Part shown: positions 19,864 through 44,900 of the stretch, piece after piece | Layout: each line of letters opens with the position of its first letter | Position numbering within the stretch: the first letter of the stretch is position 1 | Source: Mortierella sp. BCC40632 | Lineage: Eukaryota; Mortierellomycota; Mortierellomycetes; Mortierellales; Mortierellaceae | Assembly: GCA_011634665.1 (NCBI GenBank) | Contig: WAEK01000011.1 | Coordinates: 1,358,501 to 1,422,500 of the forward strand | Direction of reading: 5' to 3' | Length of the DNA stretch: 64,000 nucleotides | Notes under the pieces: model-generated | Databases searched by the model: none | What the model saw: the letters and a program-made list of their open reading frames with translations, nothing else | What the model was told of the DNA's origin: nothing | Program-made: the position numbers and the translations under genes

Positions 19864-20060
19864 CATTGTCTATGGTCAGTTATCCCTTAAACCGTAAGGT
19901 TTGGTAGGCAAATTTGCCGATTTAAAAAAATAATAATGAGTGGTTAGATTCCATTGAGCGAGCACAAAATACAGGGTATGTTTGTTTCAAACAAGAAATA
20001 CTTACTGAAACAGGATAAATAATGTCGAGTTCCACACTCGACTTTGGCTTCCCATTGTTC
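19864..20060 (-). ncRNA. Candidate omega (guide) RNA region downstream of Fanzor copy 2
   Basis: Directly after the Fanzor stop codon (minus strand) lie four perfect short hairpins: GTCGAGT/ACTCGAC at 20042-20024, TGTTTG/CAAACA at 19993-19979, the palindrome GGCAAATTTGCC at 19918-19907, and AAACC/GGTTT at 19902-19889. In TnpB and Fanzor systems the guide RNA scaffold is made from the 3' end of the gene and its downstream flank. The structures are seen; the RNA function is inference. It could equally be a structured 3' UTR or transposon end. Confidence 0.35.
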
Positions 20061-22810
20061 CTATTGACTTCGGCGCAAGAACCATGGCCACTCCATCTTC
20101 GACAGCCAGTGGTGAACCGCCATTGCCATGTTTTGCCCACCATTCACGTCGCGGTTGCGTGCTGACTCATGCTTGGCTTCTGTGTTGGCTCCCGCTGCAC
20201 TGGCTCTACTGGACTTGACGTTATGACACTCTGCCTTGCAAATTATCGATCTCTTGTTCTCCTCCGTGCTGTCGCCACAGAGACAACATCGCTGCGATGT
20301 GTTGTACTCGTCAACCAGACACACAAAAATACCCATCCCTAGTGCCTATTAGGCAGCAGTATCATATTAAAATCATAGTCTTGAAAAAAGATCCTTTGTC
20401 CTACGCCTTTACTTTTACCATCTGGCACAGTCTCTCCAGCACGAGATACGTTCCACTCGTTCCACCATTAAATGGCTTAAACACTCCGTCTCCAATGGCA
20501 AGAATGACCTGTCGCTTGGATGGCAGACTGGGCTTTGGCAGGGGTTCTTGCATCTCCTCTGCTGTCTCCAGATTGGCGATGCTAACAGCCGTCTGCAGAA
20601 TATGTGAAAGGCGCTGGTCTATCTCTGATCGATGTCTTTGCTGCTTTTGGTACTTGAGGATCTTGTAGGACATGGATCCGTAGAATGCTCCAAGCAACCC
20701 ATCAGCACCAAGTTTCGACCGGACATGCTCCTCACTGTTCTTGGAGAGTTGTCGCAGTCGTGACTCTTCTGGAACCTTGCCAGGGTCCTCAACGGTTACT
20801 GGAACAATCGCTTGCTCTGCTGTATTGATATCATCCGTCTCCTTGGCAAGCTGCATCAGGTGCCTGATCCACTTTGTGTGCCTGTTGTACGTTCCCCTGG
20901 ACAAGTGGTGATTTGAAGCCCGGTCGGGTCGGGCGCTATCAACTATCACCGCTGTGATGAGCTCGGCAATCCCAGGGTCAACCCCAATCACCACACAGCT
21001 TTTCCCGACAAGCCTGTCAACTGTCTCCTTATTTTTGAAGAGCTCGGTGACATACGGGATAGAATTCCGACCACCGTTGAGGGGGTGTGCAAGAGATTTG
21101 CTGGCTTTTGGACATGGGGTAGTACTGCCTGTCGCCTCTGCATCGCCTTTAGGACTCTGAACCTTTTTGGTCTTGGGATCCAGTGCGCGATAGGCAAGTA
21201 ACCGGAGCTGATATCCGTCTGTTACGATTGTTCCACGCAAACAATGTTTGTGGTGGTGTGGGTGTAGCTGCGGGTGTTCGGTATTGGCTGATTTTACATC
21301 TAGATTGCCCATCTGATGACATTTTCGCTGCCTTCAGTGCAGTGATCCATTCTTTTGCCTTTCCGACAAACCGACTCTTCAGCTCTCCATAGCTCCTCTT
21401 GGCCGCAGTCCCCTCAGGTTGTTCAGTATTGCTCTTCCCTCGCCCAGGCAATTGTTTGGCTGCCTCTTCAAGCTCCTCTTCCGCTGTAGCAACCGCCAAG
21501 CCAAAAGAGTCAAACAGTCCCGGAAGCTGGGATGTCGATGGTCTCCCAACACAGGTTGTTCTGTCATAGTTGGTCTTTTGTCTTCCTCCGACAAAGAGCC
21601 TGTAGCAGATCTCGCCTGGATGATCTGAAGCCCTCTTTGCCGCCTCAGCCTGAGTGGAGACTCCCAGCAGTTCTTTGATTATCCTTTGTTTTGCTTCGTT
21701 GACACGGTCCTGTCGAAAGATTGCGCGGACAAGATACTGCTCGGGGACTGTAAGGAAGGCTGTCGTGTCTCGAACAGCAGGGGCCAATTTCATCCGCTCC
21801 AGAGCTGGTAGTTGGAGGTTGAGAATCGTGAAGACCTCGGCCTGGCTGTACGCTTTCGACACTCCACTTTCCTCCACTGCTGCCAACAACGCTGCACCCT
21901 CTGTCGATTGGGCCCATGTCGGGTTTCTTTGGCGTACCTATAAAAAGTTATCATGGTTAGGATATGTTGAAATGCTGGACAATTCAAACTCTCAACATGG
22001 AAAGGTTCATGCTACTTACTCTGCTGATCAACTCTGGGACAAACTCGACAAATGTCTTGCGCAATAATTTGTGAAGACTCTGCCCCGACCCTTCAAAGAA
22101 GCAGTGGGGTACTTGGCCCCTGAAGGTGCGACTGAAATTGTTGTCGCTGCTGATCAAAATCAGTCCCGCTCTCTCGGCAAAGTCGCTGACCACTTCCTTG
22201 GCGAGGTTCATGCCTGGTGTCCCTCGCTTTGTCTTGTCACCGCAGTAGAGGTAAATTATAAGTTGTCGACAAAAATCCTCTGTGTCTACCGTCTGTAACC
22301 TTTTTTCGATCCTCTACTTGATTGTCCCCTGCAGAATACATGTTTGCGACTGTCCTGGCAATGAACCATTGGATGACATAGAGTGCAAGTTTAGTGGCCT
22401 CTGAGTTGCACTTTGCTATCGCTAGCAGTGTGTCACCAATGTACTGTGCGGCTGCTCTGCGTTCTGTTTCTGATATAGAAGGAAGCCGTTCTTTGAGAAC
22501 TGATTCTACTCGCCACTGGATTGGATCGCGCTTCTGGGTGATACAGTCAGATGTTGAGTTTAATACTTGGTCAATCAGGTTACCGGGCGATACTCTATTA
22601 GATGCTCCTGCTTCCGACTTGCTTTCTGCTCCCAGGGCCGTTTGAACAGCAAGTCTTGTAGCCTTTGCCCTCTTCAGCTTTCCGCGTCGTCGTTTTGTTA
22701 AAGGCTCCAGTGGGGTCCTTGCCTCACTTGCTTCGATCGTTGTCAGAGAATTCGCATCTTGTTCGTTTCTGTCATTCTCATCGGGTTGGCGCTTCTCGCT
22801 TTACAGCCCT
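20061..22810 (-). CDS. Fanzor-like RNA-guided nuclease, copy 2
   Basis: TnpB-like nuclease core on the minus strand. The last exon, 20345-20061, follows a 67-base intron (20412-20346). Motifs: LRGTIVTDGYQLRLLAY; RuvC-I VIGVDPG (Asp codon 20979-20977); VILAIGDGVFKP at the RuvC-II position with no Glu; alternative Glu in VDEYNTS (codon 20309-20307); CCLC zinc-ribbon half; and the final Asp in NRDVNGGQNMA (codon 20150-20148). The N-terminal part is spread over 21149-22810, with conserved-looking blocks such as KERLPSISETERRAAAQYIG and a likely 44-base intron near 22250-22310. Frame joins near 21300 are uncertain, so part may be decayed. An XPG/FEN-like region lies just upstream on the same strand and may belong to the same protein. 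Expected role: omega-RNA-guided DNA cleavage supporting element maintenance. Copies 3 and 4 are closer to each other than to this one. Confidence 0.72.
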
Positions 22811-22832
22811 AGTGAGAAAGATGGGTTAATCC

Positions 22833-22869
<37 letters not shown>

Positions 22870-23436
22870 CCTTAACCCAAGCTGCAACCTATATTGAAAC
22901 TTGCCTTTTGAGGAGCCGCTTATCGTGAACTGGCTGCTTGCTCACAGAACACTCCCGTTGTGGATTTTTAGATGTACTGGTCTCGACTCCCGAACGAGCT
23001 GTGCGCCAATTGTCAGTCTCGCCTTGACCAACAGCTGGCTCAGAGATCTCTTCTTCCTCTTCTTCCTTTCTCGGAAAGTTGTCAATCATTCCCATACCAC
23101 GAGGCTGGGTGATTTTGAGAGTCGGGACATTTCGTTCCTTGGTCATATGTCTTGTAGCACCGCTCTCGGCCTGGATTCGCATGGCGTTTTCATTCCGCTG
23201 TTCATCAGCACGCCGAAACGAGAACGAAGGTCTTGACAACGCTTGCGCTGCCACTATGCCTATACAAGTTTGAAAAAAAAAAAAAAAAAAAAAAAGTTGA
23301 TCATTAAAATAATGTCCCCTGTCATCAACTGGCTGCAGGCTTTGGAGAAGATTCAGTCCTACCCTGCGCCACTGCTTTCTTTTTTTAATCCTAGTGTTGA
23401 GCTTGCGAAGCTCCCCGGGGAATTTCTTGGCTGCAC

Positions 23437-24472
23437 TCAACAACTGGTCCGATAGGCAAAGTATCTCTGAGGGGGCGTCGAGGGAGGCACTAGTGGTGTC
23501 TCCTCTGCGTGGATGAAAATTTTGGTCGCATCGTCAAACTGGCTTGGATCCACTTCAAGAGCTTTGGCATACCCTGCTAACAGCGCTTGCACCGTCCTTT
23601 GACCTGCAGGCAATCGATCCCATAGTCCAACAAGAATTTTCTGGTTCTTGTTGATGCCATACCCCCTTGACATTTTCGCAATAGTCGTTCCCCGAGGTGA
23701 TCGCCACTGCTTGCCATACCACAAAGTCCGGAACCCTCAGTTGTCCCAGGAGCCTCGTCGTTGATCGTGTACAGCCAGAATGTGGACTTGATAGCGCGGT
23801 CTTGACTGATCAAATGAATGTTGGGGTAAAGAGCATATCGCTATCGACTGTCGCTACATAGATCCGTTGTCTAGACCCCAATGCTTCGCGCCTAATGCAG
23901 TTATCGGTCTCGCCAGAGCAAACATGAGCGCGGTGGCCAAGAGCCACGAGGTCATTGGCAACCTTGACCCGCATGCCCATATCGATCCGTATTGAACACT
24001 TCCAGGAAGCCATCATGTTCACAAATGCCCGGAGTAGGCGTCGGCGCAAGTTGCGTGCTGAGCGATCCCCACCATCAGGATACTCCTGGTTTGGTTGAAT
24101 TGCTGCGTTGAATGCGGACAGAGAGCTGGAACATTGCTCACGACTATCCACTTCATTTTGCGATCGATGTTTCCTGGCGACGACCTTTTCAGCGATAGGG
24201 AGTCCGTCGATGTGGATAATCGCGTCATTGGAAAAGCTGAGTTTGAGTTTCTTGCTTATTGCTTTGGCGATCCAGTCGGGCTCTTCGTCTGGCTCCTTGC
24301 CCCTGGAAGCCAGGCGCAGCAATTTCTTCTGGAACCAAAAAAGAATGGCAAGGAGATAGGATAAATAGAGTGCAAAGAGGTCGACGTGGACAGAAGGAAG
24401 CTCTTTCGGATCTACTGCAGACCGTAGGATACCAGCTTTTGCAATAGTCTTCCAAGCTTGTTTGACTGTCAT
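23437..24472 (-). pseudogene. XPG/FEN-like (PIN-fold) nuclease region upstream of Fanzor copy 2
   Basis: The first frame (24472-23810) shows the acidic pattern of the XPG/FEN1 superfamily: VHVDLFALYLSYL near residue 30, IIHIDGLPIAEKVVARKHR (compare the D-G-P..EK..R element of FEN proteins), SGETDNCI (E-x-D pair) and VATVDSDMLF (DSD). The downstream part continues in other frames (23813-23577, then 23724-23437) with LWYGKQWRSPRG and GINKNQKILVGLW, where a helix-three-turn-helix region would be expected. The frame breaks suggest decay or unresolved introns. The next 600 bases on the same strand are a charged linker (including KEEEEEE) leading into the Fanzor N-terminus. FEN-like enzymes cut flaps and nicked DNA; the substrate here is unknown. 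Confidence 0.6.
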
Positions 24473-25485: not shown

Positions 25486-25514
25486 CACGCCCAGTCGCTT
25501 TCACCTCGAGGAAA

Positions 25515-27388: not shown

Positions 27389-27520
27389 ACCAGATAATAC
27401 AAATTATGAATGGATGCTGAAATCGACAAACCTCTCTCTCTTCTCTCCTCATCAACCTCACCACCACCAACACACACACACACACACAATGGCCGCCGCC
27501 CCCTCCCCTAAGACAGCTAC

Positions 27521-28558: not shown

Positions 28559-28579
28559 ATTTTTTTTTAAATGGGAAGG

Positions 28580-28651
28580 TGCAGCAGTATATAAATACCT
28601 CTCACCACCCTCTAATAAACGACAGCTCTTTCTACGACTCTTGCTGTTGCA
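28580..28651 (+). repeat. Terminal repeat (3' LTR) of gypsy A
   Basis: It starts TGCAGCAGTATATAAATACC directly after the purine tract AAATGGGAAGG, and its first 41 bases equal those of the 74-bp LTRs of gypsy B, including the TATA element and AATAAA. The last 31 bases diverge. Fanzor copy 3 coding sequence begins immediately after. Confidence 0.7.
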
Positions 28652-30346
28652 CCTGCCCCTTGACGCTGTAGATCGGATAGATCCCATGAAGTCACCAATT
28701 GAGAACTTCATTACACTGAACAGGGTCGCAGGAAGTCGTCGATGTTTAGTGCCGATTTCCTCTTTTCAGGTCAAGTTTATTACTCTCTCCGAGCTTGATC
28801 TTACACGACTTTTTTGGAAGGATGATATCTTAAAGAGGAAACTGCAATTGTGTGCCCACTCTGATTTCCCGTCCGTCGAATACACCTCCGAGATCTCCCT
28901 CCCGGATATCGAACTCTGGCTTGGGAGGACTGAGCCAGGATACCTCATTAACCTACTGCTGACAGACATTGGAAGCTATTCGGTATACCATAGGAGAAAA
29001 CTGAGAAATTATTCAAAATCGACGCTCAGGATGACCATTAATGAGATGAAAGACCATGTCCAGACAATCCGACAGGAATCCTTCGATCCAGCATCGTACA
29101 CCAAGAAAGGGTATGCACTCCGGGGGTCGATTAGGACAGACGGTTTCCGGCTCCAGCTCCTTGCCTTTAAGCTCAATGAGCTCAACTGTGTGAAGTACAG
29201 ACGACTGCCCACTGAAAGGTTACCTCTCCGGATAACTTCGACTCTGGGCGGAACTGACTATTACATGACAGAGATCAGAAATGTGGTCAAATCCAAGGGT
29301 GACATTGACATGATTTGGGGTTGTGACCCTCATCAAATCAAGATCCTTGGGATCGATCTAGGGCAAGCATTCGTTGTGGGAGCAAGCGCCTTATTGCCCT
29401 CTTCTAACGGCCCCACTACATCTAATGACGGAGGAGCACCAGCAGAAGGACCTGTGACAAGCAAGCCGACCAAGTTTCACAACCTCTCGGTAAAACAAAA
29501 GGCGGTGTATCAGCCGGCCCTGAAGCTCAGACGCTGGTTGGAGCAGAGAAGAAATCGAGCAATCGAAGGCACCGAGTCTATCAGTCAAATCGAAGCAAGT
29601 TTTCCACATCGCCATGGACCAGATGCAAGTGTCGAAAACTACGTGAGAAGAGAGCGAGAGGTTGAAGCTGACCTTGTATCATTCTATGGCGATACGGTGC
29701 TGAAGAAGCATTTGTGGAATGCCAGAAAGGCGGCGAAGGAGGAATACAGGGTGATCGCTGATCGCTTACTAAAACTTGTTGGAGGATCAACAGGAGCATT
29801 GAGGAGCGACAAGAATAAGGTTGTCATCGGGATCGGTCTTGGAAAGTTCTCCTCGCAGATGAGACTGTCCTCATTGCATGATTCATTTCAAAGATATTTT
29901 GTACAAAAAGTAAGTTGAGAAACGTGATTTCTCTTGACTTCTCTGATGTCTCCTCGACCAAGCACTAATGTTCCTGTTGTTCCTGTTTATTTTAATAGGC
30001 GCGATCGCTTGGATACGTTGTAGTAGGAGTCAACGAGTACTACACCTCCAAGAAATGCCCTGTATGCGAAGAGTTTGTTGGGCAAGTCGATATCCGTCGC
30101 CTGTACTGCTCCAAGTGCAAGACGTACATGCACAGAGACGTGATGGCTGGCCACAACATTGCGAATATCGTCCAGGGCTACCTTCTTGGGCGGGGACGCC
30201 CTCTGTACCTTCAGCCCAAAGATGCCGACGACCATTACCCTTGGTCAACTGGCCCAAATCTCTATGCTAGACCCAAGCCTTCTCTCCCCAGTCTCCCCTC
30301 AAGTTCTGGATCAAGAGGTGTCAAACGAAAGGCCCCAGTAGAGTAG
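28652..30346 (+). CDS. Fanzor-like RNA-guided nuclease, copy 3 (5'-truncated)
   Basis: Exon 1 runs from the gypsy A boundary to 29909 and exon 2 from 29999 to 30346, together about 535 residues with no frameshift. Motifs: YALRGSIRTDGFRLQLLAF; RuvC-I ILGIDLGQAFVVGAS (Asp codon 29355-29357); KHLWNARKAAKEEY helix; VVIGIGLGKFSS at the RuvC-II position (Gly in place of Glu); alternative Glu in VGVNEYYTSKKC (codon 30035-30037); zinc ribbon CPVC (30056-30067) and CSKC (30107-30118); last catalytic Asp in MHRDVMAGHNIANI (30137-30139). The tail ends with a small basic cluster (KRKAP). The N-terminus, and any XPG-like part, was removed where gypsy A inserted. An internal ATG at 28686 could still serve as a start. 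The best-preserved core of the three. Confidence 0.82.
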
Positions 30347-30467
30347 GAAGAGAGAATTACTTTTTTTGTAGTCCTTTTGTGTATTAGCAAATACAGGACT
30401 GCGTTTGGGCTTCGGGAGCAGGACTTGTCCTGTTGGGCAAACATTTTCGTCACTCCGGTGACGTAAT
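30347..30467 (+). ncRNA. Candidate omega (guide) RNA region downstream of Fanzor copy 3
   Basis: Three hairpins in about 95 bases after the stop codon: AGTCCT..AGGACT enclosing GTATT/AATAC with loop AGCA (30370-30400); CAGGAC/GTCCTG with a 2-base spacer (30419-30432); and GTCAC-TCCG-GTGAC (30449-30462). The last runs into the conserved element-end motif CCGGTGACGTAAT (30455-30467). Position and structure fit a TnpB/Fanzor guide scaffold; expression is unknown. Confidence 0.4.
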
Positions 30468-30605
30468 ATCGCGCCTTGGGGGGGGCAAAATGGACTACGA
30501 TTAACTAAAAAAGGTAAAAGGGCAACAGATTTATTTGCCCAATTGCCCTGACGATGCCATGATAGTGGAGGGTTGCCATCACTAGTCTGTTATTCTTAGT
30601 AAATA

Positions 30606-30960
30606 TCATTTATTACACTCTTGAAGTTGTTGCAGTAAAGTTTTAGAGGAATTCACTGCAGCCTGGAGGTCCTCCAAGCTACAGGTTTTTGGCTTTTTGT
30701 TTATCAACTTGGCAATCGAACACCCATTGCTAAAGAGTTCCTTTTCTACATCTTCAAAGACCCTCTTCCTCTGCTCCTTCCGTCGATATCTCTCTTCCTC
30801 TTCGTCCGTGGCTCTCAAGTATTCGAGCTGGGTGTAGGCCAGTGGGCTGTGTATGGCTAACTGGTCTCTGAGTGAATCATTTTTGATGCTGCTGATGCTG
30901 CTGATGCCGCTGATGCTGCTGTTGCTGTTGATACTGTCGTTTTCTTTGTCTATGCTATCG
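30606..30960 (-). pseudogene. MULE transposase, C-terminal part (left of gypsy B)
   Basis: A Ser/Asn-rich stretch (DKENDSINSNSS..) then an Arg/Glu-rich helical tail (EEEERYRRKEQRKRVFEDV, LEDLQAAVNSSKTLLQQL) to a stop at 30606-30608. It matches the tail of the SWIM protein at 18693 in character. Read across gypsy B, after dropping one copy of the 5-base duplication TATCG, the frame continues directly from the SWIM half at 36983. So this is the displaced 3' end of one gene. Confidence 0.75.
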
Positions 30961-31034
30961 TGCAGCAGTATATAAATACCTCTCACCACCCTCTAATAAA
31001 CGGCAGTTCATTCTCAACCATCGTTCCTGTTATA
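30961..31034 (+). repeat. 5' LTR of gypsy B (74 bp)
   Basis: It holds TATATAAATA (30969-30978) and AATAAA (30995-31000) in 74 bases, identical to 36909-36982. It starts TG but ends TA rather than CA. The bases after it (TGATAGCAAAGG) do not match a tRNA 3' end that I recognise, so the priming mode is unclear. Confidence 0.8.
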
Positions 31035-31232
31035 TGATAGCAAAGGAATTTTTTCCACCCCTGACACCCTGAACATTACTTTTCAAGTTGACCTCCCCGT
31101 CGCCCCTGTCTTCCCCGTCCACCGCCCTAACCCTGTCCCCTGCTCTCTCCCCACACCCCCACACCCCTACCAAACGACCCCTGTCCCTACTCGACCCCCC
31201 TGTCCGCCGCATTCGACCGTTTGTCTATCACC

Positions 31233-32172
31233 ATGTCTACCGTTGCTCCCACCACACCTTCACATAAGTACCCCCTTCCAGACAAATTCAAAGGAGGTCG
31301 CGATGGATTTTCTGCACAAGCATGGTTAAAAGCGTTAGACGCTACCTCCTCGCCACCTCCGTCCCCGAGAACATCCAAACAATTGTCGCAGTTTCACTTT
31401 TGGATGTGGACGCGGCATGTTGGTTCGATGGATCAGGATTGAGCGACACTGCCTCCTTCATAGACTTTGAGAAAGACTTCTCCGAGATGTACATCCCTGC
31501 CGACTTCACACGCACCATCCGCTCCAAGTTGTTCAACCTACGAATGACTTCTACTGTCGAGACCTATGTTACCGAGTCAAAAAGACTTCTTACTGCCTTA
31601 CTGACCGAAGCTAAAACCGCCGAAGTCAGAGCTGATATCGAGAATACGGCCCACATCAGATTTGTCGATGGCTGCCCTAAAGCTCTCCAACAACTCCTGG
31701 AGGCCTTGTTCATCTCCAAGGATCTCTCTCTGTCTACGAGCTCTTCGCTGCAGCTGAGAAGTTCGACCGAATCTACAACTTCCAACCAGACCACGCTGGT
31801 ACCAAAAGTAAGAATACAACGAACACCCAACCTTCTGTCGTTGCTTCCAACTTCCAGCCCCAGCACCAATCGCCCATGGCCATGGAAGTGGACAATCTTC
31901 GGTTCGAGATTAATGCCCTCAGGAAGGAAAATAATAGGCTCAAGCAAAACGGCAATAATCGTCAGAATAAAACAGGCCTCAAACCCCTCTCACCTTCTGA
32001 GCGCCAATGGTTGCGAGACAATAACGGCTGCTTCAAATGCCGTGAGTTGGGTCACCATCAACGAGATTGCCACGTCAACAAACCCCCATCCCGGCCCGCA
32101 AGACTAAACAACATATCGGTTAATGAGGACTCCTCCCCAGAGTCGGGAAAAGTCTCCGGCAATCAGGATTAG
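31233..32172 (+). pseudogene. gypsy B gag
   Basis: It starts MSTVAPTTPSHKYPLPDKFK. The frame shifts near 31325-31345, continues through a capsid-like stretch (SVPENIQTIVAVSLLDVDAA, FEKDFSEMYIPADF, MTSTVETYVTESKRLLTALL), shifts again near 31745 and ends with one zinc knuckle CFKCRELGHHQRDC (CX2CX4HX4C, about 32029-32070). The stop is at 32170-32172. Two shifts make it non-functional as read. Confidence 0.8.
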
Positions 32173-32410
32173 TCCAGGACCTGATTGCCGATGCCCCTCC
32201 TCTTGTTCTCTGGACAAGGGGAGTGTATCTAGTTCCAGAGTTAAGTTGTAGTTCTTCTGAATTAAAAATTAAGCTCCAAAACCAAAACACTTCCCTTCGA
32301 ACATTCCTCATGCATGTAAACTTTTCAAAGAATCTGACGACAGTTACTCCGACCCTGTCACACCTACCCGTACCACGCCAACCACCCTTCTACCTAGGTC
32401 GATTGAGGCA

Positions 32411-35400
32411 GTGGACCTGGACCCATCTGACCCTCTCTCATCTCTAGAACCCGCCGTGGCCGCGCGCGCCATTCGCTTACAATCGGCTACATCGAACAGC
32501 ACGACAAATACACTCCTCACCTTTCTTGGCAAGATCGATGGCTACTCTGCTCGCATCCTCATCGATGGAGGAGCAGAAGGAAATGTACTCAGCAATACCT
32601 TTCAGGAACGCCATTCTCTTCCCCTCCACCCTTGCGCTGCCATTCCAGTTATTCTGCCGGATGGCTCTGTCTCAGTCATAAACCATGTTTCCAACATAGT
32701 TTTATCACACAAAACTTATTCGGCCAACCTGGAACCGATCCTTTATCCACTACAAAACTATGACCTTATTCTCGGCAAACCTTGGCTAGCCCTCGTGAAC
32801 CCCATGATCAATTGGCGCACAAACGAGGTGAAGTTTAAATCCAACGGTCGCGATATTCATTGGATATGCAACGACAGACTAGACGGCCTCAAAGACAAGA
32901 GCCCCAATCATGGTAACAATCATTGCAAACGAGTCAACGCCATCAAGTTCTGCAATATCGTCGCTCTTCCGGGTAGTGAATTATTTATTGCAAACCTACA
33001 ACCGATCCATGGGTCAAACAACCCCTCCGATCTCTCCCCTGAGGTTGCAGCAATCATCCAAAACGAGTTTGCCGATGTCTTTCCAACATCCCTTCCCTCG
33101 GGACTCCCACCTGACCGAGGGGACGCCATGAAGATAGAGACTGATCCAATGGCTGACCCTCCCGTTCGACCAGTCATCCGATTGTCCATTGCCGAACTAG
33201 ATGAGCTCAGGAAGCAACTGGACGATCTTCTAGAAAAAAGGGTTTCATCAAACCTAGCACCTCACCATTCGGCTCACCTGTACTTTTTGTTCGGAAAAAG
33301 AGGGCACACTACGTATGTGTGTCGACTATCGAGGACTGAATCAGATCACCAAGAAGAACAGACACCCTCTACCAAGGATCGATGAGCTTATCGACCGCCT
33401 TCAAGGAGCACGATATTTCTCGAAACTGGATCTCCTCTCAGGTTATCACCAACAAAGGATATTCGAAACCACACACTCACAAAACTGCCTTCCGTTGTCG
33501 ATATGGTCATTTTGAATGGAACGTGATCCCCTTCGGTCTGACTAATGCTCCTGCCTCGTTCTCTGCCATGATGAGAAATGTTCTTCACCCTGTTCTCGAC
33601 AAAAGTGTCATTTCATATCTTGACGACTTACTCATCTACTCCAGGACAAAAAGAGGAGCATCTTCAACACATTCGAGAGGTGCTGGCGTTATTAAGAAAA
33701 AATCAACTCTATGCAAAACTGAGCAAATGCTCATTCATGCAGAAACAAACAGAGTTCCTTGGCCACACGATCACGGAAGAAGGAATACAAATCAGTGCTG
33801 TTCACATCAAAGCCATCCAGGAGTGGCCCCGCCCTTCCAAGCAAAAAGACGTCCAACAGTTTGTAGGACTCGCACAATATTGTCATCAAGGTGTCAAGGA
33901 CTTTGCCGAGATCGCCCTTCCATTGACCAACCTCCTAGGGAAACAAGACATCCTTCTGCTGGGAGGATGAACATGAAAAGGCTTTTTATGAGACTCAAGA
34001 AGGCCATCACATCTGCCCCCATACGACGAATATTCGACCCTACACACTGACGACTATTGTGGGAGCGGATGCCTCTGGATTTGCACTAGGTGGATATCTC
34101 GCCCAAACGGATAGACAAGGTGTGACCCGACCTGTCGCATTCACCTCACGGAAATTGAACAGTGCCGAACGCAATTACAGAACTCATGAGCAGGAGCTGC
34201 TTGCGATCGTGCACGCCCCCTCAGGACTTGGAGGTACTACCTAGATGGCACCAAGTTCACAGTCTACACCGACCACGATACCTTTGAAACACTTCTTGAC
34301 ACAACCCAAACTCACTGGACGCCAGGCGCGGTGGATGGAACTACTACAGGAATATGATTTCGAAGTAAAACACAAACCTGGAAAAGAAAACATCATCGCA
34401 GACGCCCTCTCACGCCGCCCCGACCACCAGGAGGAGGAGCCGAAGACGATAAACAACCTGGAAATCTCAATGGAACCAAGTGTGAGACAACGTCTAATAG
34501 ATGGGTACTCAGAAGACCCCCCGTCTGGGCCCACCTATGCAAGCTGCTTAGAAGGAAGTTGCCCAAAAAAATTATGCCTTGTACAAGGGACTGTTATGTA
34601 TTGAACACAAGGGCGTTTATCTGATCTGCATCCCTAGCAAAGCCGACATCCGCCTTGACCTTCTCCATGATGCCCATGACTCTGCTATTGCCGGCCACCT
34701 CGGGTTCGACAAGACTTACGATGCCCTCCGACGCTCTTTCTACTGGCCTCGAATAGCCAATGATACCAGGCGTTATGTTGAATCTTGCGAAAGCTGTCAA
34801 AGATCCAAACCCAGTCGACAAAGGCCAGCCGGCTTTGCTCCATCCACACGAAACCCCCGAACAGCGCTGGGATACAGTGACTATGGATTTCGCGGTTCAT
34901 TTGCCAAAGACGGACCAAGGATTTGACGCGATCACGGTGTTTGTGGACAAACTCTCTAAACAAGTTCACTTCGCCCCTTCCAGGACCACAGACACAGCAT
35001 CAGACGTCGCCCGTATATTTTTAATAATATCTTCCGACTACATGGCATGCCTCGCAGGATCATCTCAGACCGCGACAGCAAGTTTACGAGTAACTTTTGG
35101 CAGGAACTTCACCGCCTCATGGATGTTAAATTAGCATTGTCGACCGCTTTCCACCCGCAGACGGATGGTCAATCCGAACGGGCTATCCAGACCCTTACAT
35201 CTGTACTAAGGGCTTACGCGGACGACAAGCAGACCAACTGGGACGTTTTATTACCGGCAGCCGAGTTTGCTTTTACAACAACTCTGTTAACCCCACTACA
35301 GGCTTCTCTCCTTTCTTCATGAACTACGGTTTCCACCCACGTGTTCCAACCGCACTGCTACAACCACCAACATCATCAGTGCCAAGCGTGGAAGACTTTG

Positions 35401-35952
35401 TCAAGGAGCAACAGCACGTATTGAAGACGACACAGGAGAACATTCGCCTCGCTCAAGAAAGACAAGTGTGGAACTCCGACCATAGACGACGCGACCATGA
35501 TTTCAAAGTAGGGAGACAAGGTTATGCTGAACGCTGAAAATATCACCTTGCCCAAGGACAGAGGAGTTAAGACCAGAGCTCAGAAGCTACTTGCTCGATT
35601 TATTGGACCTTTCACTATCATCGAACAACACTCCCCCGTTACCTTCCGTCTTGAGTTGCCGCCGACTTACAAGATCCATGATGTTTTCCACGTGGACAGG
35701 TTCCGACACTACCACGAGTCACCCGAAGAACTTGGACAGCGAGCCCCACCTCGTCCAGACCCTGAGTTGATCGACGGCGAGGAGGAATATGAGGTAGAGA
35801 GAATTCTCAACTACCGCTTGTACCGTAGACAACACCAGTTTCTCGTCTTATGGAAAGGATACAACAACGAGGACGCAACATGGGAACCGGCCCGCAACCT
35901 CGACCACTGCAAGGAGACTGTCGACAGATACAAGGAAGAACATGGATTGGAC

Positions 35953-35958
<6 letters not shown>
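32411..35958 (+). pseudogene. gypsy B pol: protease, RT, RNase H, integrase, chromodomain
   Basis: The polyprotein is spread over several frames. Protease: ARILIDGGAEGNVLSNTF (the usual DSGA or DTGA reads DGGA) near 32555. Reverse transcriptase: [44 protein letters not shown] and the YLDD active site (about 33616-33627), then [13 protein letters not shown]. RNase H: VGADASGFALGGYLAQ. Integrase: HDAHDSAIAGHLGF..CESCQ, MDFAVHLP, SDRDSKFTSNFW and TDGQSERAIQ. Chromodomain: ERILNYRLYRRQHQFLVLWK through 35958. At least six frame breaks occur between 33300 and 35530. Confidence 0.85.
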
Positions 35959-35989
<31 letters not shown>

Positions 35990-36012
35990 TCATGCTGGCA
36001 TCATGTGATGAA

Positions 36013-36055
36013 CCTGGCATCCAATCAGAAATCGACATGTCATCAGGATGCCAGG
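36013..36055 (+). repeat. 10-bp inverted repeat between pol and 3' ORF, gypsy B
   Basis: CCTGGCATCC (36013-36022) and GGATGCCAGG (36046-36055), 23-base loop. It is conserved in gypsy A, with a TATAAATTA-like box (36062-36070) just after it and before the 3' ORF. Confidence 0.8.
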
Positions 36056-36165
36056 ACCAGATGTATAAATTATAGATGGATGCTGAAATCGACAAACCTC
36101 TCTCTCTTCTCTCCTCATCAACCTCACCACCCTCACCACCACCAAAACACACACACACACACACA

Positions 36166-36882
36166 ATGGCCGCCCCCCCCTCCCCAAAGACAGCTACCCC
36201 CCCCGTCCCAAAGACACCTGCCCCCCGTCCCAAAGACGCCTGCCCCCCGTCCCAAAGACACCTGCCCCCCCCACCCCAACGACTCCCCCTCCCCTGTCCC
36301 AATGACGCCCTCCCTTCCACCCCCTCAAGGACGACCAAACCACCCTCCTCAGTGCCAGCGCAGGCACAGACCAGGCCACAGCAGCCGACCCCGCAACAAC
36401 CGCACCAACGACTGGGGCAAGGCGACTCGGCACTGTCGGCAGAGGAGAGACAATGGAATTACTTGAGGGACACACGACATATGCGCAAACCGTTGTCTTT
36501 CGAAAGGTTGATGCTCGCCATCGAGGATGAGTTAACATTCTCAAGAGCCATGGCTATGAGGTTCGAAAAGACTTGCGACACTGACATGGACAAGGCTGGG
36601 GTGTTCTCTCGAGAAATGCAGCAAAGCAAAAAAAGGAGAGCAGAGTATAACGACCTTGCGCTGATGTATTTTCCGGAACAGGTGGATACAAAAAGAGTTC
36701 GCAAAGACCGCTCGACGACATGCAAGGATCAGCAACGCGAACTTTTGGACAAACACGTGGAGGCATACATGGCCAACACCTCCCTGTTCAGGGAACTCTT
36801 CGTGAGAGAAGCGGACCATACTTCTCACGCGCCCCCACCTAACCAACAACCAGAGAACCCTCCCCAGAGCCGTAGTAATTAG
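36166..36882 (+). CDS. gypsy B extra 3' ORF, unknown protein
   Basis: An intact frame of 238 residues from the ATG at 36166 (context ACACAATGGCC); an in-frame ATG at 36076 lies only a few bases after a TATA-like box and is less likely. The first 90 residues are Pro-rich and repetitive (PVPKTPAPRPKD-type units). The rest is charged and helical: QGDSALSAEERQWNYLRDTR, PLSFERLMLAIEDELTFSRA, EMQQSKKRRAEYNDLALMYF, DKHVEAYMANTSLFRELFVR. There is no signal peptide or membrane span, so it does not look like an envelope protein. It is kept almost unchanged in gypsy A while pol has decayed. Function unknown; it could be a nucleic-acid-binding accessory. Confidence 0.7.
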   Translation: MAAPPSPKTATPPVPKTPAPRPKDACPPSQRHLPPPPQRLPLPCPNDALPSTPSRTTKPPSSVPAQAQTRPQQPTPQQPHQRLGQGDSALSAEERQWNYLRDTRHMRKPLSFERLMLAIEDELTFSRAMAMRFEKTCDTDMDKAGVFSREMQQSKKRRAEYNDLALMYFPEQVDTKRVRKDRSTTCKDQQRELLDKHVEAYMANTSLFRELFVREADHTSHAPPPNQQPENPPQSRSN

Positions 36883-36908
36883 ATAATTTTTTTTTTTAAA
36901 TGGGAAGG

Positions 36909-36982
36909 TGCAGCAGTATATAAATACCTCTCACCACCCTCTAATAAACGGCAGTTCATTCTCAACCATCGTTCCTGTTATA
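36909..36982 (+). repeat. 3' LTR of gypsy B (74 bp)
   Basis: Identical to the 5' LTR and directly preceded by the purine tract AAATGGGAAGG, as expected for the plus-strand primer of a Ty3/gypsy element. Confidence 0.85.
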
Positions 36983-39129
36983 TATCGGATGACATAGGCG
37001 AAAGAAAGCGACTGAGCCATAGGTCGTGAAAAACACGCTCGACAAGAAAGAGGTGTTTGCACGGAAGGGGCTTGCGCCTGAAAAAGTCGGGGCATGAACA
37101 TGAGACTAGCTGCCCGGATCTGGCAATTACAACAATAGTGTAAAGTTTATCTGGAGTGGTGGGGTCCAATGAATGTATGAAAATCTACCCGAGAAGCGGA
37201 AGAAAGATAGATAAAATCCATTATAAGTGACATTCGACTGAGCAAACGAATCCGGAATGGTTATCAACTGCCTCATGGTCATCAAACCATACTTGTAGAT
37301 GTCCATCATTGCAGGGTTGATCTTTGTTGAAGCTGATCTTGCGCTGTGCTTCGTCGAACGAAACTTCGTCTGCCTTCTGCTTCCTCACCTTATCCTCTTT
37401 CCTCCAAGGTATGGGCAGGAAGCCTCTTAGTCTTGAAGTATGCGAATCGAAACTCTCTATTGACTCGGCCCTGTAATAAATAAACAACTCGATCGACGCG
37501 GAGATTCCGTTCACCATCAAGGTGGTAGCCCTTCAAACGAGCATGCCACGACTCTATCCAATTATTGGTTGTGACAACTTGCCCGTCCTAATTAAATGAG
37601 ACGAGTGTATTATTTAACTGGTGATAATCATGACGATCGACGTGGAAAGGAATTGAGATACACTTTACCTCTCTTACCTCTCTGTGGAAAAATGCCCATC
37701 TCTCCAGCCTTCCCTTCTTGTCGAACCAGTTCTTCTGGATGTAATTAATCACTGGCGATGCAGCTGAATAAAGCTCTTTTGAACCTAATCCAGAGTGTCT
37801 GCTGTAACTCGGGTGACCTGGCTCTGCGAACCTCATTCAAAAAGTGGCCGCATCTGTTTTTCCGCCCTTCCTGTCGAATGAGTGCAACATATGAGTATAC
37901 GTCTAAGAATACTCTGTAGTTTCAGTTCAAAGAGAAGAGAGAGAGAGAGAAATGCCTACCGAGAACTTGAACAGCTGTTTCTCCCACAGCTGTCCGACAT
38001 GGAAATCGCAATAATAGATCTTTTTGACTCGGGGAAAACAGCCCCGATGGCGTGGGACTCGGCTTCTGCACAGTCCACCATGAATGAATCCGTTTTCAGA
38101 ACACATTCGTTCTTTAGCCATTGCAGCCACCGAATGATAGGATAGCTAATGGGTTTAAAGCACAAATAAAATACAAGTCCATTCAATCACATGTGGCACA
38201 GGTAACGATGCAGATGCACAGAAATAAAATGGGGAATCATACCGAGATTCAGACTTGCACGCCATGTAGGCGACAGGGATTCCTTTGATGGATATCTTTG
38301 TCATTGACAAGTAGAGTAAACAAATATGCTGAGCCGTGGACATTGCTGCCCCTCTTCGGTCGGTGTAATGTCCCTTATAGTCTTGTGAGTCGAATCCATA
38401 CAGTAGCAGCTGGAGTTTCCAGACATGACCTACATGGACATATTATTAAAAAGACATTGATAGTTGGCACATGCATGACTGAGAAGCTCGAACGCATGCT
38501 ATCTGTAGTTTACCATCAGCTGAAAGCTCGTGCACCATCCATACGCAAATCCTGTCAGTGCTGCATCCTCAACGAACATGGTCTTGCCACCCTTGTTTTC
38601 GATTTCTTTTGAACCACAGTTTGACGCTGTTGGCAACGCACCTATCCTTCTGATATTCCATTCTTTTTTCTCTTGGAGATAATTTGTCGAAAACCAGGGT
38701 CAATGAATAGGTTGCCAGAAACAATTCCCTTTGGAGTGATCATGGGCCGCGTCCTCCATTCAAGATGGTACGTTTGAAGACATTAGACACAAAACTACAC
38801 TGTTCAGGAAATAGGACAAAAGCCAACACTCTTACCGCTTGAAGGCTCTGCTCATCAGGGATGAGCCTGCTCGACAGAGAATACCAATCATAACCCTTTT
38901 TCCGCCAGACGCCGAACCCAGCTGCGTTCATTTTGACCAAGAGGCAGTTGTGCGCGATCATCATCATGATTGTGCCTCCATATTGTACCTGACCACAACC
39001 TTGTCCTCCTCTCCAACAGGTTGTGCCATAAAGAAGACCTGTGCCCCTGCAACGTTGACCCACTGATTCACGTGGGAGAGAGATATCTTTTTCTTGCGGT
39101 GGCGACGGCAGGCAAACGTGAGTCTCCAA
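36983..39129 (-). pseudogene. MULE transposase, catalytic and SWIM part (right of gypsy B)
   Basis: Minus strand, broken into several frames. In order: EDAALTGFAYGWCTSFQLM (about 38570), first catalytic Asp in MDSTHKT (about 38370), IKGIPVAYMACKSE, second Asp in FMVDCAEAESHAIGAVFP (about 38060), CDFHVGQLWEKQLF (about 37990), WAFFHRE (about 37690), TTNNWIESWHARL (about 37560), and the SWIM finger CSCPDFFRRKPLPCKH (about 37050-37100). The N-terminus beyond 38740 is uncertain. Frameshifts at short homopolymers near 38020 and 38290, plus the gypsy insertion, make it inactive. Mutator-like transposases move DNA with terminal inverted repeats by cut and paste. Confidence 0.75.
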
Positions 39130-39989
39130 GATTACATGGTCCTTGTGCCTGCAACTTGTTCAGATGTTTTTAAATGGAAGTGGAGTGCTCGGATCGTCCT
39201 TTTGATTATAGAAGGTTGAGTACTGATTGGGTCTATGAACCCACATACCAGTTTGCCGCTCTTCCGCCCACCATCTCACGAAATTCGTCGATAAAAAGTG
39301 AATTCCTTGGTGCTAGTGTCGTTTGATGATAATTGTTGAGGTTTGATGTTGTTTCTGGGGTCGTAGTTGTGAGCATGATAAGTTATCCTCCAATTTGAGA
39401 CCAGACATTTTTGGAGCAGCCGATTGTGGGGAGTTGTTGCAGTAGGCTCACAGAAACGTGACAGAGGGCCAGGGATGAGGGGAAAGGCCATGCAAAACCA
39501 AGTAATGCTGGCGATGGTATTGACAGGCAAGCGGATAGGAGTGAGTGTAGATGTGTATGTGGAGTGGCGCGTGTGTATGTGTCTGTTTGAGGGAGATAAG
39601 ACTGCGGAAGAGAAGGGGAGGATGAGAGGGAGCAAAAAGCGGAAAAGAGGAAAAATATTGCACGTACCACCTCAACCCACATGTTCATAGAATCCACTGC
39701 CCTTTCTCTGCCGAACTGATGCAGGGAAGAGATGCCGGTATTGCATTCCTCTCCTCCGCATTTCCTTTCTTTCCATGACAGCCCAATGCCGGCTGCAGGT
39801 CGCACCAGTATAGAACCTCCTCTTCCCGCTTCAATCTAAGCCACATATTCTTTAAGAACGCGTTCTGTTTCGCGTTTGATTTTGATTGCTTCACCTCATC
39901 TCCCCGCCATGGGCGTGAAACGCGCGTGGCAACTACCAGGCAAGAAGGGGTTTTTTCCAAACCCACAACACACAATCTCGTCAACCGGC
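39130..39989. other. Spacer between divergent MULE and XPG-Fanzor genes
   Basis: It probably holds the MULE N-terminus and a shared promoter region. I could not fix any exon. The frames include short, protein-like pieces on the minus strand (around 39280-39430 and 39690-39880), none recognisable. Confidence 0.4.
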
Positions 39990-41111
39990 GTCATCCGCGT
40001 TGATGTTCGCTCGACCCACAACGTCCTGATAAAAAATCATTTATGAGAACGCCACAGACTTAAATGCTGCACATGCCAAGCTCGAATGGTGGCTCACAAG
40101 ACTGGGGAGCAAGGATCAGCTGCGTTTCTATGTTGATGGTGAACCGGCACAAGAAAAGATGGATGTTCATGCCAGTCGCCGTCGACACCGTCAACAATCT
40201 CTATCGAGGGCTGCCGCCCCATTTATTTTCAATCCTCGAATCACGTCTCATTAAAAAGGCTCGGATTCTGCAAGCACCATATAAGCAACGCACGCGGGCC
40301 CCTGCGTCAGTCATCTTATTGGCCATTGGAGCAGCGCCGGAGTTTTGTAGAGTACATGAGCAATAAGGGCCATAACATCGTGTTGTGCGTAACCGAGGCA
40401 GACACGCTCATCGCAGCAGAATGCCAACCACAAGATGCAGTTGTATCCTGCGATAGTGATCTCCTGTTTTACAAGACCATTCGCGTTGTTTGGCGTCCTA
40501 TCGGGTCATACAAAGCACGCCGCTTTGTCCCGTACGAGAAAGGTGCCCTTCTCGAGGCACTCGAATTGTCTCCAAGCCAGATGACCGCTCTTGCTGTATT
40601 AAGCGGCAATGATTACGTCCCAAATATTCCCTACCTTGGACTTATGACCAATTACAAGATAATCAAGTCTTTGGAAGGTGGTAAGAAGGCAGGCGATTTT
40701 GATATTGACCTACTTGTTCTTAGTGCTCTGACAGCTAATATTGTCTCTACCGTCCGTCTTTAGATGAGAGAAGTATTGTCCAGCAGTACCTTACTCGCCC
40801 AGAAGTAAAAGCGACGCACGGACAAAGGGTGCGGAGATTGGACTGTTGAGACTTATAACAATGCTCTCAAAGTCTTCGTGGAGATGAAACAGGACAGAGT
40901 ATCAGACACAGCCTTTCCGTCCTCTTCGGCTACGAACAGCCCATCACCTTCGTATGCTACTCTATGCCAGCGGTTGGATCGATTCCTGGTTGAGTTTATG
41001 GCGTCCAAGAAGAAAGCGTATGAAGAACGCGTGGCCAAGAGGTATCAGGCGCCCGTCCTCGCATTTAACAGGCCTTGGCTACAAATCAAAACGATTACTA
41101 GTGAACACTAA
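39990..41111 (+). pseudogene. XPG/FEN-like nuclease region upstream of Fanzor copy 4
   Basis: It begins near RVDVRSTHNVLIKNHL (39996-) and, after a shift at about 40040, reads LEWWLTRLGSKDQLRFYVDG and GEPAQEK. It then continues in another frame with GHNIVLCVTEADTLIAAECQ (acidic pair), VVSCDSDLLFY (DSD at 40452-40460), ALAVLSGNDYVPNIPYLGL (the H3TH-like motif of FEN/XPG enzymes) and IIKSLEGG. A later frame (40861-41111) holds NALKVFVEMKQDRV and ends with a stop. The order of acidic motifs is that of the XPG/FEN superfamily. The frame breaks suggest decay or missed introns. Same strand and 40-200 bases from the Fanzor-side coding sequence, so a single fused gene is possible. Confidence 0.65.
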
Positions 41112-41149
41112 CCGTCTCAATGTTTCTACACCTTACGTATTTGCTGTCA

Positions 41150-44100
41150 ACAGAGCGGTGCGTGATAAACAGTCGAGAACCGGAGGAGCAGAACCCGAGC
41201 AAGCTAACATCTTTTTTACGACTGACCAGCCGAATCCTGCCAAAACCATCAATTTCGACCAAGATTCAGCCCCAAGGTCCGGTATGAACCTATGAAAGAA
41301 CATCCTGCCCCTGCGATCTCCAAAGAATACCAACTAAAGCCATGGAAGCAGGCACCTGAGAAGCCGTCGGTGGGGACACATACGCCAAAACCCAACAAAA
41401 CGAAGCCTGCGGACATCAAAGCCGAGATCAAAGAGAATGACAGCTTTGGGCGTAAGCAAATTTTAAACGCCCTATCGTTCGAGCACCCAATCGTATGTCT
41501 GGATCTTGGCCGCCTGGCCCCTAGTATTCATGCCGCCGTCAATGACGATGGGGCCGCCAAGGAAGTCATCGAGTGCATCCGTGGAGCTGTCCGCGCTGCG
41601 TGGAGTTGTAAACGGCGCTGTCAGATTTTGATTGGTCTATATCTGGAGTCTGTTTTCTATCCTCGGCCACACCCTGGCGCCCCTCGACCTGCGGCACCAG
41701 TGACAAGCATCACTCCACAAGATCGTGAGATCCTTGAAAACTTGTGCCCTTCTCTAACATCCAAGGAGATAGCTGACGACGACCCCGTCAGCTCTATAGG
41801 GGGGATGGTGAAGACGATCCATCTAATGTGCGCTTTCTCCATTCTTTCATCAGCTTTCTGTACTCCGGCAACCCGCCTCGTGAAAGGAAAATCTTAGTAT
41901 CCGGCAATCCGCCAGATACTAAGAAAAAAATTGGAACAGTCGTCAACTCCTTCATTAATCGACTGGAAGAGTTGGGCCATTTAGACACATCGAACCTCAC
42001 CAACGCAGTCATGATCCAGAATGTCAAGGAGTACACACCAACGCTGTTGGTCCGTTCGGTAGCTTCACAGCTTTCGGTAGAGCTCATGCGACACTATAGG
42101 CAAGGAACGAAAAAGCTGTTGGAAATGGTAATACGCCCGTCAATGTTAGTTATTTCCAATTTTGTCAAAATGGAGACAAACAATTCAAAAGTTAATTAAT
42201 CGTTTTTCTGTATATGTCACAATAGATCCGAAAGATGATCAGAAAGGGCCGATTGCCAAACAATCAAGCAATCGATTTGTCCTCTAACGAGCCAGCGATC
42301 CAGATCTTTGTACGAGCAAATGCTACGGCTGGCCGGCCTTGGCGACTCTCACCGCTGTCGCCAGAAGAGCATGGATACATGACGTTTACCGAGCTAGAGC
42401 TGGCCGCATTTCTACACAAGAGGAAAACATTGCATCCCATCCTGGCGAGGATTATTGGATCTGAGGACCGACAGAGAGATCTAACTCAGACAGAGCTGAC
42501 TCGTGACTGGATCCCACACCAGACGCCAGGCCTGTTCATCCAGCACATCATAGCTCCTGTGGACCCCAAGACTTTGACTGGTGATCGTGTTCGCGGTCGT
42601 GAGAAGAAGGAAGCCGGTGTCTCTGCCGCAGTCAAGATTGTTGATCCAGATGACATCCGGGACCACATCAATGATCTTCGCCGAGACGGATTTGACCCAA
42701 CAGCTTACGAAAAAGAGGGGATATTTCCTGCGTGGCTCCATAAAAACTGATGGATACAGCCTCCAGTTGCTGGCATATAAATTACGTGAGCTCAACTCGG
42801 TCAAGTTCAAGCGTTACAAGACCGAGGTTCTACCCGACCGTCTCCTCTCAACTACAGCCGGCACAAGCGACCATCTCACCGAGGTGCATAATGTCTTCAA
42901 GTCGACTGCTGATGTCGAGCGTTTGCTTGGGTGCACTCCAGGCGAAACAGATAGTGTGTCGTACCTAGGAATAGATCTGGGCCAGGCCTTTGTGGTAGGG
43001 GCGAGTGCGATTCTCCCGGAGGGTATGACCATCCGAGTCGGTAAGCGACGGCGACACCGGCAAAAAAAGAAACGAGGCAGCCGGGGCCGGCGCCCGAGAG
43101 GTAGCGGCAAGGGAAGGAAGATAGCCAGCCGGGAGGGCCGTGAGCGGTACATCAATCTCGCAGCCAATCAAAAGGCCGTTGCGCGACCAACTCTCGCTCA
43201 CAGAACCTGGCTTGAAAATCAAAAGTCGGCCGGCCTGACGCGCCCCCCCCCTCCAAACCCGAGTCATTAGTTGTACCGACCGTCAGCACAGACGCAACGA
43301 CTTCATTGACACTTCAGTCTTCCACCTCTTGTGTCAGTCCAACGGTGTCTGACCTCCTTTCGATTAGCTTGATCGAATCATCGCTTACTCCTCTGTGTGG
43401 TCCAGATGCCGACTTTTCCACACATGTGCAGCAGCGACAAGCGAACAAAGACCACCTGGACACGTTTTACAATGGCCGTCAATTCAAAGTCAAGAAGTAC
43501 ACGCAGATGGCAAAAAGGGCAAGGAAGAAGGAGTTTTGTCAGCTTGCAGACTCGCTACTGCGCATGGTTGGCGGTTCTTTGGGCGAAAGGAGGAAAGAGA
43601 ATGCCAAGGTTGTCATTGGCATTGGCATGGGCCAATTCACCTCTACTTCCCGACTGACATCCTTACATGGATCATTCGAGGCATTTTTCGTTCAGAAGGT
43701 AACATTTTATTGTAAGTTGCAGTGATTTCTTTTCCAATCCTGCTACTGATAGCTGTTGGATTGACTCTCTCTCCCCTCTTTCAATGGTATAGGTTCGAGC
43801 GCTCGGCTATGTCTTGGTTGGAATTAACGAGTTTTATACCTCAAAAAAGTGCCCAACATGCGAACAATTTGTCGGTGAGGCGGGCAGTATGAGACGCCTG
43901 TACTGTTATCGATGCCATAAGTTCCTCCACAGGGACATAATGGCAGCACACAATATGTGCACCGTCCTCAAGAGGCATGTGGAACAACAAAAACGACCAC
44001 TGTATTTGCAACCTGTAGATGCTGAAGGCAATTATCCATGGCTTGATAAATCCAGCGACTCTGACCCAACTCCAGACAGTCGTGGAGGTGGTGGTAGCAA

Positions 44101-44236
44101 GCGCCAGGCAAAGGAGATCGGCGAAGCCGATCAGGAGAAGAGTAGCAAGCGGAACAAGGCAACCAATGTCAAGAAAAAGTCGTCCAACACCACGAGTTCC
44201 AAGACAACAGCAACTGAGCAAGGGTTGGCAACGTAA
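41150..44236 (+). pseudogene. Fanzor-like RNA-guided nuclease, copy 4
   Basis: The N-terminal half (41150-42730) includes SFEHPIVCLDLGRLAPSIHA, VRFLHSFISFLYSGNPP and LFIQHIIAPVDPKTLTGD. The core: FLRGSIKTDGYSLQLLAYKL; RuvC-I YLGIDLGQAFVVGAS (Asp codon 42974-42976); a very basic insert (KRRRHRQKKKRGSRG.., about 43040-43130); VVIGIGMGQFTS in place of RuvC-II; intron 43699-43792; alternative Glu in VGINEFYTSKKC (43829-43831); zinc ribbon CPTC..CYRC; last Asp in LHRDIMAAHN (43934-43936); and a Lys-rich tail suggesting nuclear import. Three single-base shifts, each at a homopolymer (G6 near 41800, A/G run near 42712, C run near 43243), break the frame. Otherwise it aligns with copy 3 throughout. 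Confidence 0.78.
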
Positions 44237-44400
44237 CAAGCAGTATGCAGATTGATAGCTAGATAGCATTTATTTTTTTTTTACCTTGGGGTGTTCGTCA
44301 ACACCTTTGTCTACTATTGAGTAGATCTTGATTGCTGCGCAGGCCGAGCGCGTCTCCATCCGGTGACGTAATCGTAGTCCGATGCGCGGCCGTCCGCGCC
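44237..44400 (+). ncRNA. Candidate omega (guide) RNA region downstream of Fanzor copy 4
   Basis: Hairpins after the stop codon: GGTGTT-CGTC-AACACC (44290-44305), TCTACT-ATTG-AGTAGA (44310-44325), an imperfect GTCTC/GTGAC stem (44352-44367) leading into CCGGTGACGTAAT (44360-44372), and GCGCGG-CCGT-CCGCGC (44384-44399). The arrangement parallels copies 2 and 3, although the stems themselves differ in sequence. Function inferred from position. Confidence 0.4.
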
Positions 44401-44900
44401 TTTCAAAAATAACCTGATCTGATGAGAAGCGGAAATCTTACTTCTTGGTAGAACGCCAAACCCGAACAGGCAAGTGGATCATCAAACAGCTCCTGCAGGA
44501 ACATGGCTCCTTTGGCTGTACAGGAGAGAAGCGCACGCTCCACCATGGATTAGCCTCCATGCTTCTCTTTCTTTCTTTCTTTCTTTCTTTTTTTTTTTTT
44601 TTTTTTTTTCTTTTCTTTTCTTTCGTGGGAGACCATTTCTAAAAAAAAGACTAACATCTCTCTTTCTGATCTGTACTACCCTGATCGACCTTACTTTTTG
44701 ATCGACCGGGATCTCTTTCTCTTTATTCGACTCACTGCCTGGCGGATGGACATTCTATATCAACACCTCTCCAATAACCTGCTCGGACCCTGTTACTCTT
44801 TTACTGGACGTCACGTCTTTCTTTCTTTCTTTCTTTTTCTTTCCGACTTTTTCCAACATTCTGATCTTCCGTTCAACGGATATAGCAGGACCTTATCACC
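44401..44900. other. Boundary between mobile nest and host genes
   Basis: It contains CT/T-rich microsatellite DNA (44565-44630, 44818-44845) and presumably the promoter and 5' UTR of MRP10. No gene is seen. Confidence 0.5.

Follow-up and report, generated by a model that had tools for sequence, protein, structure and literature searches.

In a 64,000-nucleotide stretch of contig C11 of the fungus Mortierella sp. BCC40632 (the window; the genome comprises 49.9 Mb in 62 contigs), a plus-strand gene joins a nuclease part of the FEN/XPG/EXO1 type to a Fanzor and lies within a mobile element, here called element 1, that has precise ends (Table 1). It is about evenly balanced whether this transposon-borne gene product unites a 5' nuclease of the FEN/XPG/EXO1 type with a full Fanzor1 and works in the guided cut-and-process cycle proposed below. 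The pairing of a Fanzor and a flap-type nuclease in one protein hints at a built-in cut-and-process tool and was not found in the literature searched. The searches, which left many subscription papers and preprints outside their reach, returned no Fanzor work mentioning XPG, Mortierella or the PIN domain and none on OrfB_Zn_ribbon together with XPG, and, among the papers listed that pair Fanzor with flap, or TnpB with flap endonuclease, the titles and abstract openings report no fusion. Nor is a Fanzor-flap nuclease fusion mentioned in the excerpts of PMC3627910, PMC10711439, PMC11423790 and PMC10432273 from which these papers are cited throughout. A first-pass annotation of the window had claimed XPG/FEN and Fanzor peptides on the same strand between 39990 and 44236. 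All of these peptides are located on the plus strand and the end at 44236 stands, but the gene begins earlier, at 39909, with the XPG-type N-terminus MGVKRAWQ; the mobile element that carries the pair had been missed.

The N-terminal part is predicted to adopt a FEN/EXO1 fold containing the catalytic core of FEN/XPG/EXO1 nucleases, which answers the doubt raised beforehand as to whether it was of the PIN/FEN type; this fold and the Fanzor1 fold were obtained in two separate predictions. All ten key residues, namely the catalytic acidics and the K and R of the arch, are kept in 30 of the 33 domains that span them (Asp or Glu being accepted at one position; the exceptions are the database proteins P0009, P0016 and P0017). 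The K and R lie 7 and 14 residues past the DG aspartate, the spacing of K93 and R100 in FEN1. The nuclease part is 13-18% identical to FEN1, EXO1 and Rad2/XPG nucleases among the matches listed, and it differs from them in being joined to a Fanzor, in being transposon-borne and in having Asp at the position of FEN1 E160. The XPG_I profile scores 23.8 bits in the window open reading frame, just below the Pfam cut-off of 24.9, which only P0074 (28.1) passes among 13 relatives scanned; P0001 reaches 15.5 bits and P0006 is without the region. Such scores, under the curated cut-off in 12 of the 13, would suit a DNA-binding module without catalysis, but the retention of the ten residues and a dN/dS of about 0.2 make this very improbable. 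It is also quite unlikely that the domain acts on RNA or on an R-loop, for example by trimming the 5' end of a guide RNA or removing an RNA strand. Related folds do include RNA 5'-3' exonucleases, and P0008 gives a weak XRN_N match (E 0.033), but in both fold and residue pattern the domain is of the type found in DNA flap nucleases and exonucleases.

The rest of the protein is predicted to form a whole Fanzor fold. Of the two profiles that the first-pass annotation had suggested searching, the TNB zinc ribbon (PF07282) clears its cut-off in the window (38.2 against 26.3 bits), whereas XPG_I falls short as described. The D/E/D triad of RuvC is kept in 20 of 21 spanning relatives (exception P0007), and active-site residues are retained in both the nuclease and the Fanzor parts. 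The pattern ExxxxxxCxxC, which places the glutamate six residues ahead of the zinc finger, occurs in 20 of the 95 proteins collected (see below), many of which are cut short, and element 1 has EFYTSKKC at this relocated-glutamate site. At RuvC-I, element 1 has DLG and the second, minus-strand copy in the window has DPG; the 44 regular-expression matches comprise 27 DLG, 14 DPG and 3 others, at least two of the matches apparently being in the wrong place. DPG is described as occurring 'near exclusively' in Fanzors (PMC10711439).

That the two parts belong to one polypeptide is suggested by relatives. The nine protein matches that the 1232-residue read-through of the window gene gave at E <= 10 all reach E <= 1e-147 and come from fungi identified as Podila, Linnemannia, Gryganskiella, Actinomortierella and Mortierella. 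Four of the nine cover 97-100% of the query (one of these, P0004, is without the first nuclease part), and identity to fused proteins is 52% across 100% of the query. Together with the matches to the nuclease part (37) and to the Fanzor part (62) they form a collection of 95 proteins, of which 30 hold both parts (23 spanning the last catalytic motifs), 38 the nuclease only, 26 the Fanzor only and one neither. These shares are not a census, because many single-part entries carry a partial label and the restriction of the searches to 0.55-1.75 times the query length favours single-part proteins. All genera named in the collection belong to the Mortierellaceae, several matches carrying no name. 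Of the 25 proteins longer than 900 residues, 21 show a recognisable linker motif, R-x-R-[YF]-[SAT]-x-K-x-R, in most cases with QY-x-x-K after it; P0053, P0070, P0088 and P0095 do not. Pairwise distances in the nuclease and Fanzor parts correlate (r=0.715; 208 pairs from 21 fused proteins), with none of 5000 permutations as high. Judged from genomic and predicted protein sequences, the fusion is real and spread in the Mortierellaceae. The partner or fused flap-type nuclease of the first-pass annotation thus gains support, since relatives include single unbroken proteins of the kind sought in related fungi and no always-separate genes were seen. The remaining objection, that gene prediction has merged two neighbouring genes, can point to database proteins that are themselves predictions, to a broken window copy and to evidence from DNA and predicted proteins alone; it is hardly credible given both parts in nearly a third of the collection and in several genera, a linker motif encoded between the domains, and, in 23 of 30 paired loci, a constant order with the parts 1.6-2.4 kb apart.

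Those loci come from a genome-wide search in which two nuclease queries gave 51 merged loci and two Fanzor queries gave 80. A same-strand Fanzor lies within 10 kb downstream of 30 of the 51 nuclease loci and upstream in six, and an opposite-strand Fanzor lies within 10 kb in none; in 2000 trials of random placement, the mean was 0.42 coupled loci and the maximum 3. The counts are lower bounds, because the nuclease searches did not recover, at E <= 0.001, the minus-strand copy in the window itself, and the coupled loci are not independent, because copies are related. They nevertheless draw on two or more families that have diverged strongly, among them window element 1 and the C10/C5 family; the nuclease part of the latter has 23-28% identity to P0003 and yet keeps HIDG, E-x-D, DSD and NDY. 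A second pairing in the window at 20061-24472 (element 3), put forward earlier as an independent copy, is borne out; as a minus-strand gene of a family that has diverged strongly, it counts as separate evidence. The earlier argument that the pairing exceeds chance therefore holds, both from the fused proteins matched by the read-through and from the genomic coupling. For the third Fanzor of the window no nuclease part was detected, the N-terminal nuclease searches of the genome giving no match nearby; in it a GT-AG stretch resembling the second probable intron of the fusion gene ends at 29998.

The window fusion gene is not one open frame, because short frame breaks occur besides its introns, which were assigned by reading GT-AG signals and by alignment to relatives and have approximate limits. 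Copies of element 1 on C2, C7 and C4 are 98-99% identical to that of the window, and past 39900 the four copies (window, L036, L037 and L038) differ at 44 places, 36 of which involve a gap. These short indels may be assembly errors or decay. Open exons are present in individual copies, the nuclease exon as a single 305-residue frame in the C2 copy and a 508-residue Fanzor frame in the C4 copy, both about 63% identical to P0003.

Table 1. Features of the window (positions on the plus strand; in the strand column a dot marks a feature given without strand).
Feature	Position	Strand	Remark
XPG/FEN-Fanzor fusion gene	39909..44236	+	with introns; short frame breaks in window copy
FEN/XPG/EXO1-type nuclease exon	39909..40680	+	window copy
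RFYVDGEPAQEK peptide	40123-40158	+	nuclease part
TEADTLIAAE	40392-40421	+	nuclease part
VSCDSDLLFYK	40443-40475	+	nuclease part
VLSGNDYVPN	40596-40625	+	nuclease part
Probable intron, GT...AG	40681..40764	+	frames read against relatives P0001-P0003
Conserved linker peptide SPKVRYEP...QYQLKPWK	41268..41348	+	
Fanzor WED/REC/RuvC region	41475..43698	+	RuvC-I motif 42962-43003
YLGIDLGQA	from 42962	+	RuvC-I
Probable intron	43699..43792	+	GT-AG signals and aligned relatives
Last exon	43793..44236	+	relocated RuvC glutamate, zinc ribbon (TNB), HRD
GINEFYTSKKC	from 43820	+	last exon
HRDIMAAHN	43928-43954	+	last exon
Insertion-site motif TGACGTAATAT	30459..30469	+	just ahead of target duplication
Left target-site duplication CGCGCCTT	30470..30477	.	
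Left element end	30478..30503	+	12-bp inverted repeat 30492-30503
Possible C-terminal part of MULE-like transposase	30606..30960	-	suggested by position and orientation; no relevant Pfam match
Nested retroelement-like insertion	30961..36982	+	absent from C7 and C4 copies; nature judged by eye from translations
MULE-like transposase pieces	36981..38429	-	38025-38429, 37672-37779, 36981-37118
Structured right end, candidate guide-RNA scaffold	44328..44394	+	inverted repeat 44369-44380; element end 44394
Right target-site duplication CGCGCCTT	44395..44402	.	putatively first 8 nt of guide
Second, diverged XPG-Fanzor gene (element 3)	20061..24472	-	HIDG 24220-24185; DSD 23851-23828; RuvC-I 20994-20962; EYNTSQRC 20315-20277
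Conserved right end of element 3	19881..19926	-	two predicted hairpins
Third Fanzor, fragment	28692..30346	+	retroelement on 5' side

Estimated dN/dS is below 1 in both parts (counting method of Nei and Gojobori, with the minus-strand window copy as reference). Against a C25 relative (89-90% identical) the ratio is 0.255 in the nuclease exon, 0.33 in a middle stretch, and 0.44 and 0.19 in two Fanzor stretches. Against C10 and C17 (67-74% identical in these stretches) it is respectively 0.21 and 0.18 in the nuclease exon, 0.37 and 0.35 in the middle stretch, 0.27 and 0.25 in the first Fanzor stretch and 0.12 and 0.12 in the second, at dS values of 0.84-1.5 that are near saturation at the longer distances. 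Overall the nuclease exon stands at 0.18-0.26 and the RuvC stretch at 0.12-0.19. Since the two Fanzor stretches are read in different frames where they overlap, part of one is noncoding, and its ratio may be inflated.

Element 1 measures 7.9 kb by comparison of its copies and occupies 30478-44394 in the window, where it holds the nested insertion (about 30961-36982). Its ends carry the 12-bp sequence GGACTACGATTA in inverted orientation, 14 nt inside each end, with no long terminal repeat; with up to one mismatch this sequence occurs just twice in the window, against 0.11 expected. Pattern searches for the ends found four exact left ends and five right ends, a fifth left-end match with two mismatches having a different flank. 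The target duplications are CGCGCCTT in the window, CGTCTGGT on C7, GAGCGTCT on C4 and a run of A on C2, so that 8-bp duplications are clear in three of four complete copies. MULEs have inverted ends and target duplications of 8-11 bp, and element 1 shares both features. All four complete copies follow ACGTMAY at a common offset, with 2 bp between the motif and the duplication, although the motif was picked after viewing the sites and the C2 offset was read inside the run of A. TG precedes the motif in three of the four, giving TGACGT, which resembles a CRE/ATF site. The right end of element 1 has a predicted folding energy of -30.4 kcal/mol, and right ends are predicted to be somewhat more stable than shuffled sequences (z -2.66 and -1.74 for element 1; -2.55 and -1.45 for the subfamilies of element 3). 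In the element 3 family the last 46 nt are closely common to 13 of 14 sequences (11 distinct flanks; L057 differs), with bodies about 68-69% identical between subfamilies. The element thus has precise ends, target duplications, an insertion motif and, by prediction, a modestly structured right end.

The MULE-like pieces of element 1 have no Pfam match, and are matched in tblastn by MULE-like frames of C6 (E 4.8e-15, 1.3e-6 and 2.7e-6). Their presence in the same element, on the strand opposite to the fusion, raises the alternative that the nuclease domain serves transposition, by flap removal or end trimming during MULE excision and insertion, while the Fanzor part has a role of its own. On C6 likewise the MULE-like frame, itself a weak match just short of its profile threshold (25.8 bits; PF10551 cut-off 27.6), is found 1.2 kb upstream of a fusion gene and divergent from it. 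This alternative is nevertheless considered unlikely, as the nuclease is coupled to the Fanzor within a single polypeptide that has a linker motif, and MULE-like transposase pieces are shown for the window copy only.

In the proposed guided cut-and-process cycle, the MULE-like transposase would move the element and make the 8-bp target duplication. The fused protein would bind an RNA transcribed at the structured right end, with the flanking DNA that begins with the duplication serving as guide, and could cut the emptied donor site or an allele without the element beside an ACGTMAY-like motif. The N-terminal nuclease would trim a 5' flap or resect the 5' strand, and this processing may favour repair that copies the element back in. 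TnpB is considered to aid its element by cutting the element-free copy, which repair then fills with the element, and the function of Fanzors for the elements carrying them is stated to be unknown (PMC10432273). Joint action of both nucleases on the same DNA is plausible. A more tentative extension is a self-contained homing machine, that is, a eukaryotic RNA-guided nuclease with its own 5' resection or flap nuclease in one chain, which would steer repair towards element copying and be re-programmed at each insertion by the flank next to ACGTMAY. A naturally occurring protein in which a Fanzor is joined to an end-processing nuclease gives a clue to what follows the cut, makes the role of the Fanzor for its element a testable question, and provides a model from nature for guided nucleases equipped with their own resection activity.

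Compared with Fanzor1 proteins such as SpuFz1, PpFz1 and GtFz1, the fusion adds an N-terminal FEN/EXO1-type nuclease of about 300 residues and a linker, and measures about 1,140-1,330 residues as opposed to 400-700 (PMC10432273). PpFz1 has a different addition of its own, a RuvC insertion that binds cyclophilin (PMC11423790). Like the Mortierella element, those of Rhizopus, Phycomyces and Mucor (Bao and Jurka 2013, PMC3627910) are fungal Fanzor1 elements with MuDR-like inverted ends. Their duplications measure 9 bp instead of 8 bp, they lack a MuDR transposase, and no flap-type nuclease is mentioned in the excerpts, whereas the Mortierella element has short subterminal repeats, pieces of a transposase and the fusion. 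In the viral Mariner element PGv-1 a Fanzor likewise shares a transposon with another nuclease, but the two are separate genes and the other nuclease, of the GIY-YIG type, has an unrelated fold (PMC3627910).

Fanzor elements in this genome are clustered, several head to tail (window 19881-44394; C2:1626553-1645932; C15:122210-132843; C1:548295-567917), and the ACGTMAY of the window (within 30459-30477) appears to be part of the right end of another Fanzor element. Right after the fusion copy at C6:2619718-2623841 comes the 3' portion of a large-subunit rRNA gene (Rfam RF02543, 500 bits; L007:1915-2523), and the copy looks as if inserted in rDNA; the fetched left stretch (L044) has no rRNA. Beside the C15 copy (L039:146-2920) lies a 925-residue open frame rich in low-complexity sequence that has no match to P0002 or P0003. 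MULE-like transposase frames also occur in the window outside the Fanzor elements (18693-19858, minus strand), with a SWIM zinc finger at 18.9 bits, just under its cut-off. The retroelement-like copies at 25485-28633 and 30961-36982 are related (82-96% identical in matched parts) and interrupt Fanzor elements.
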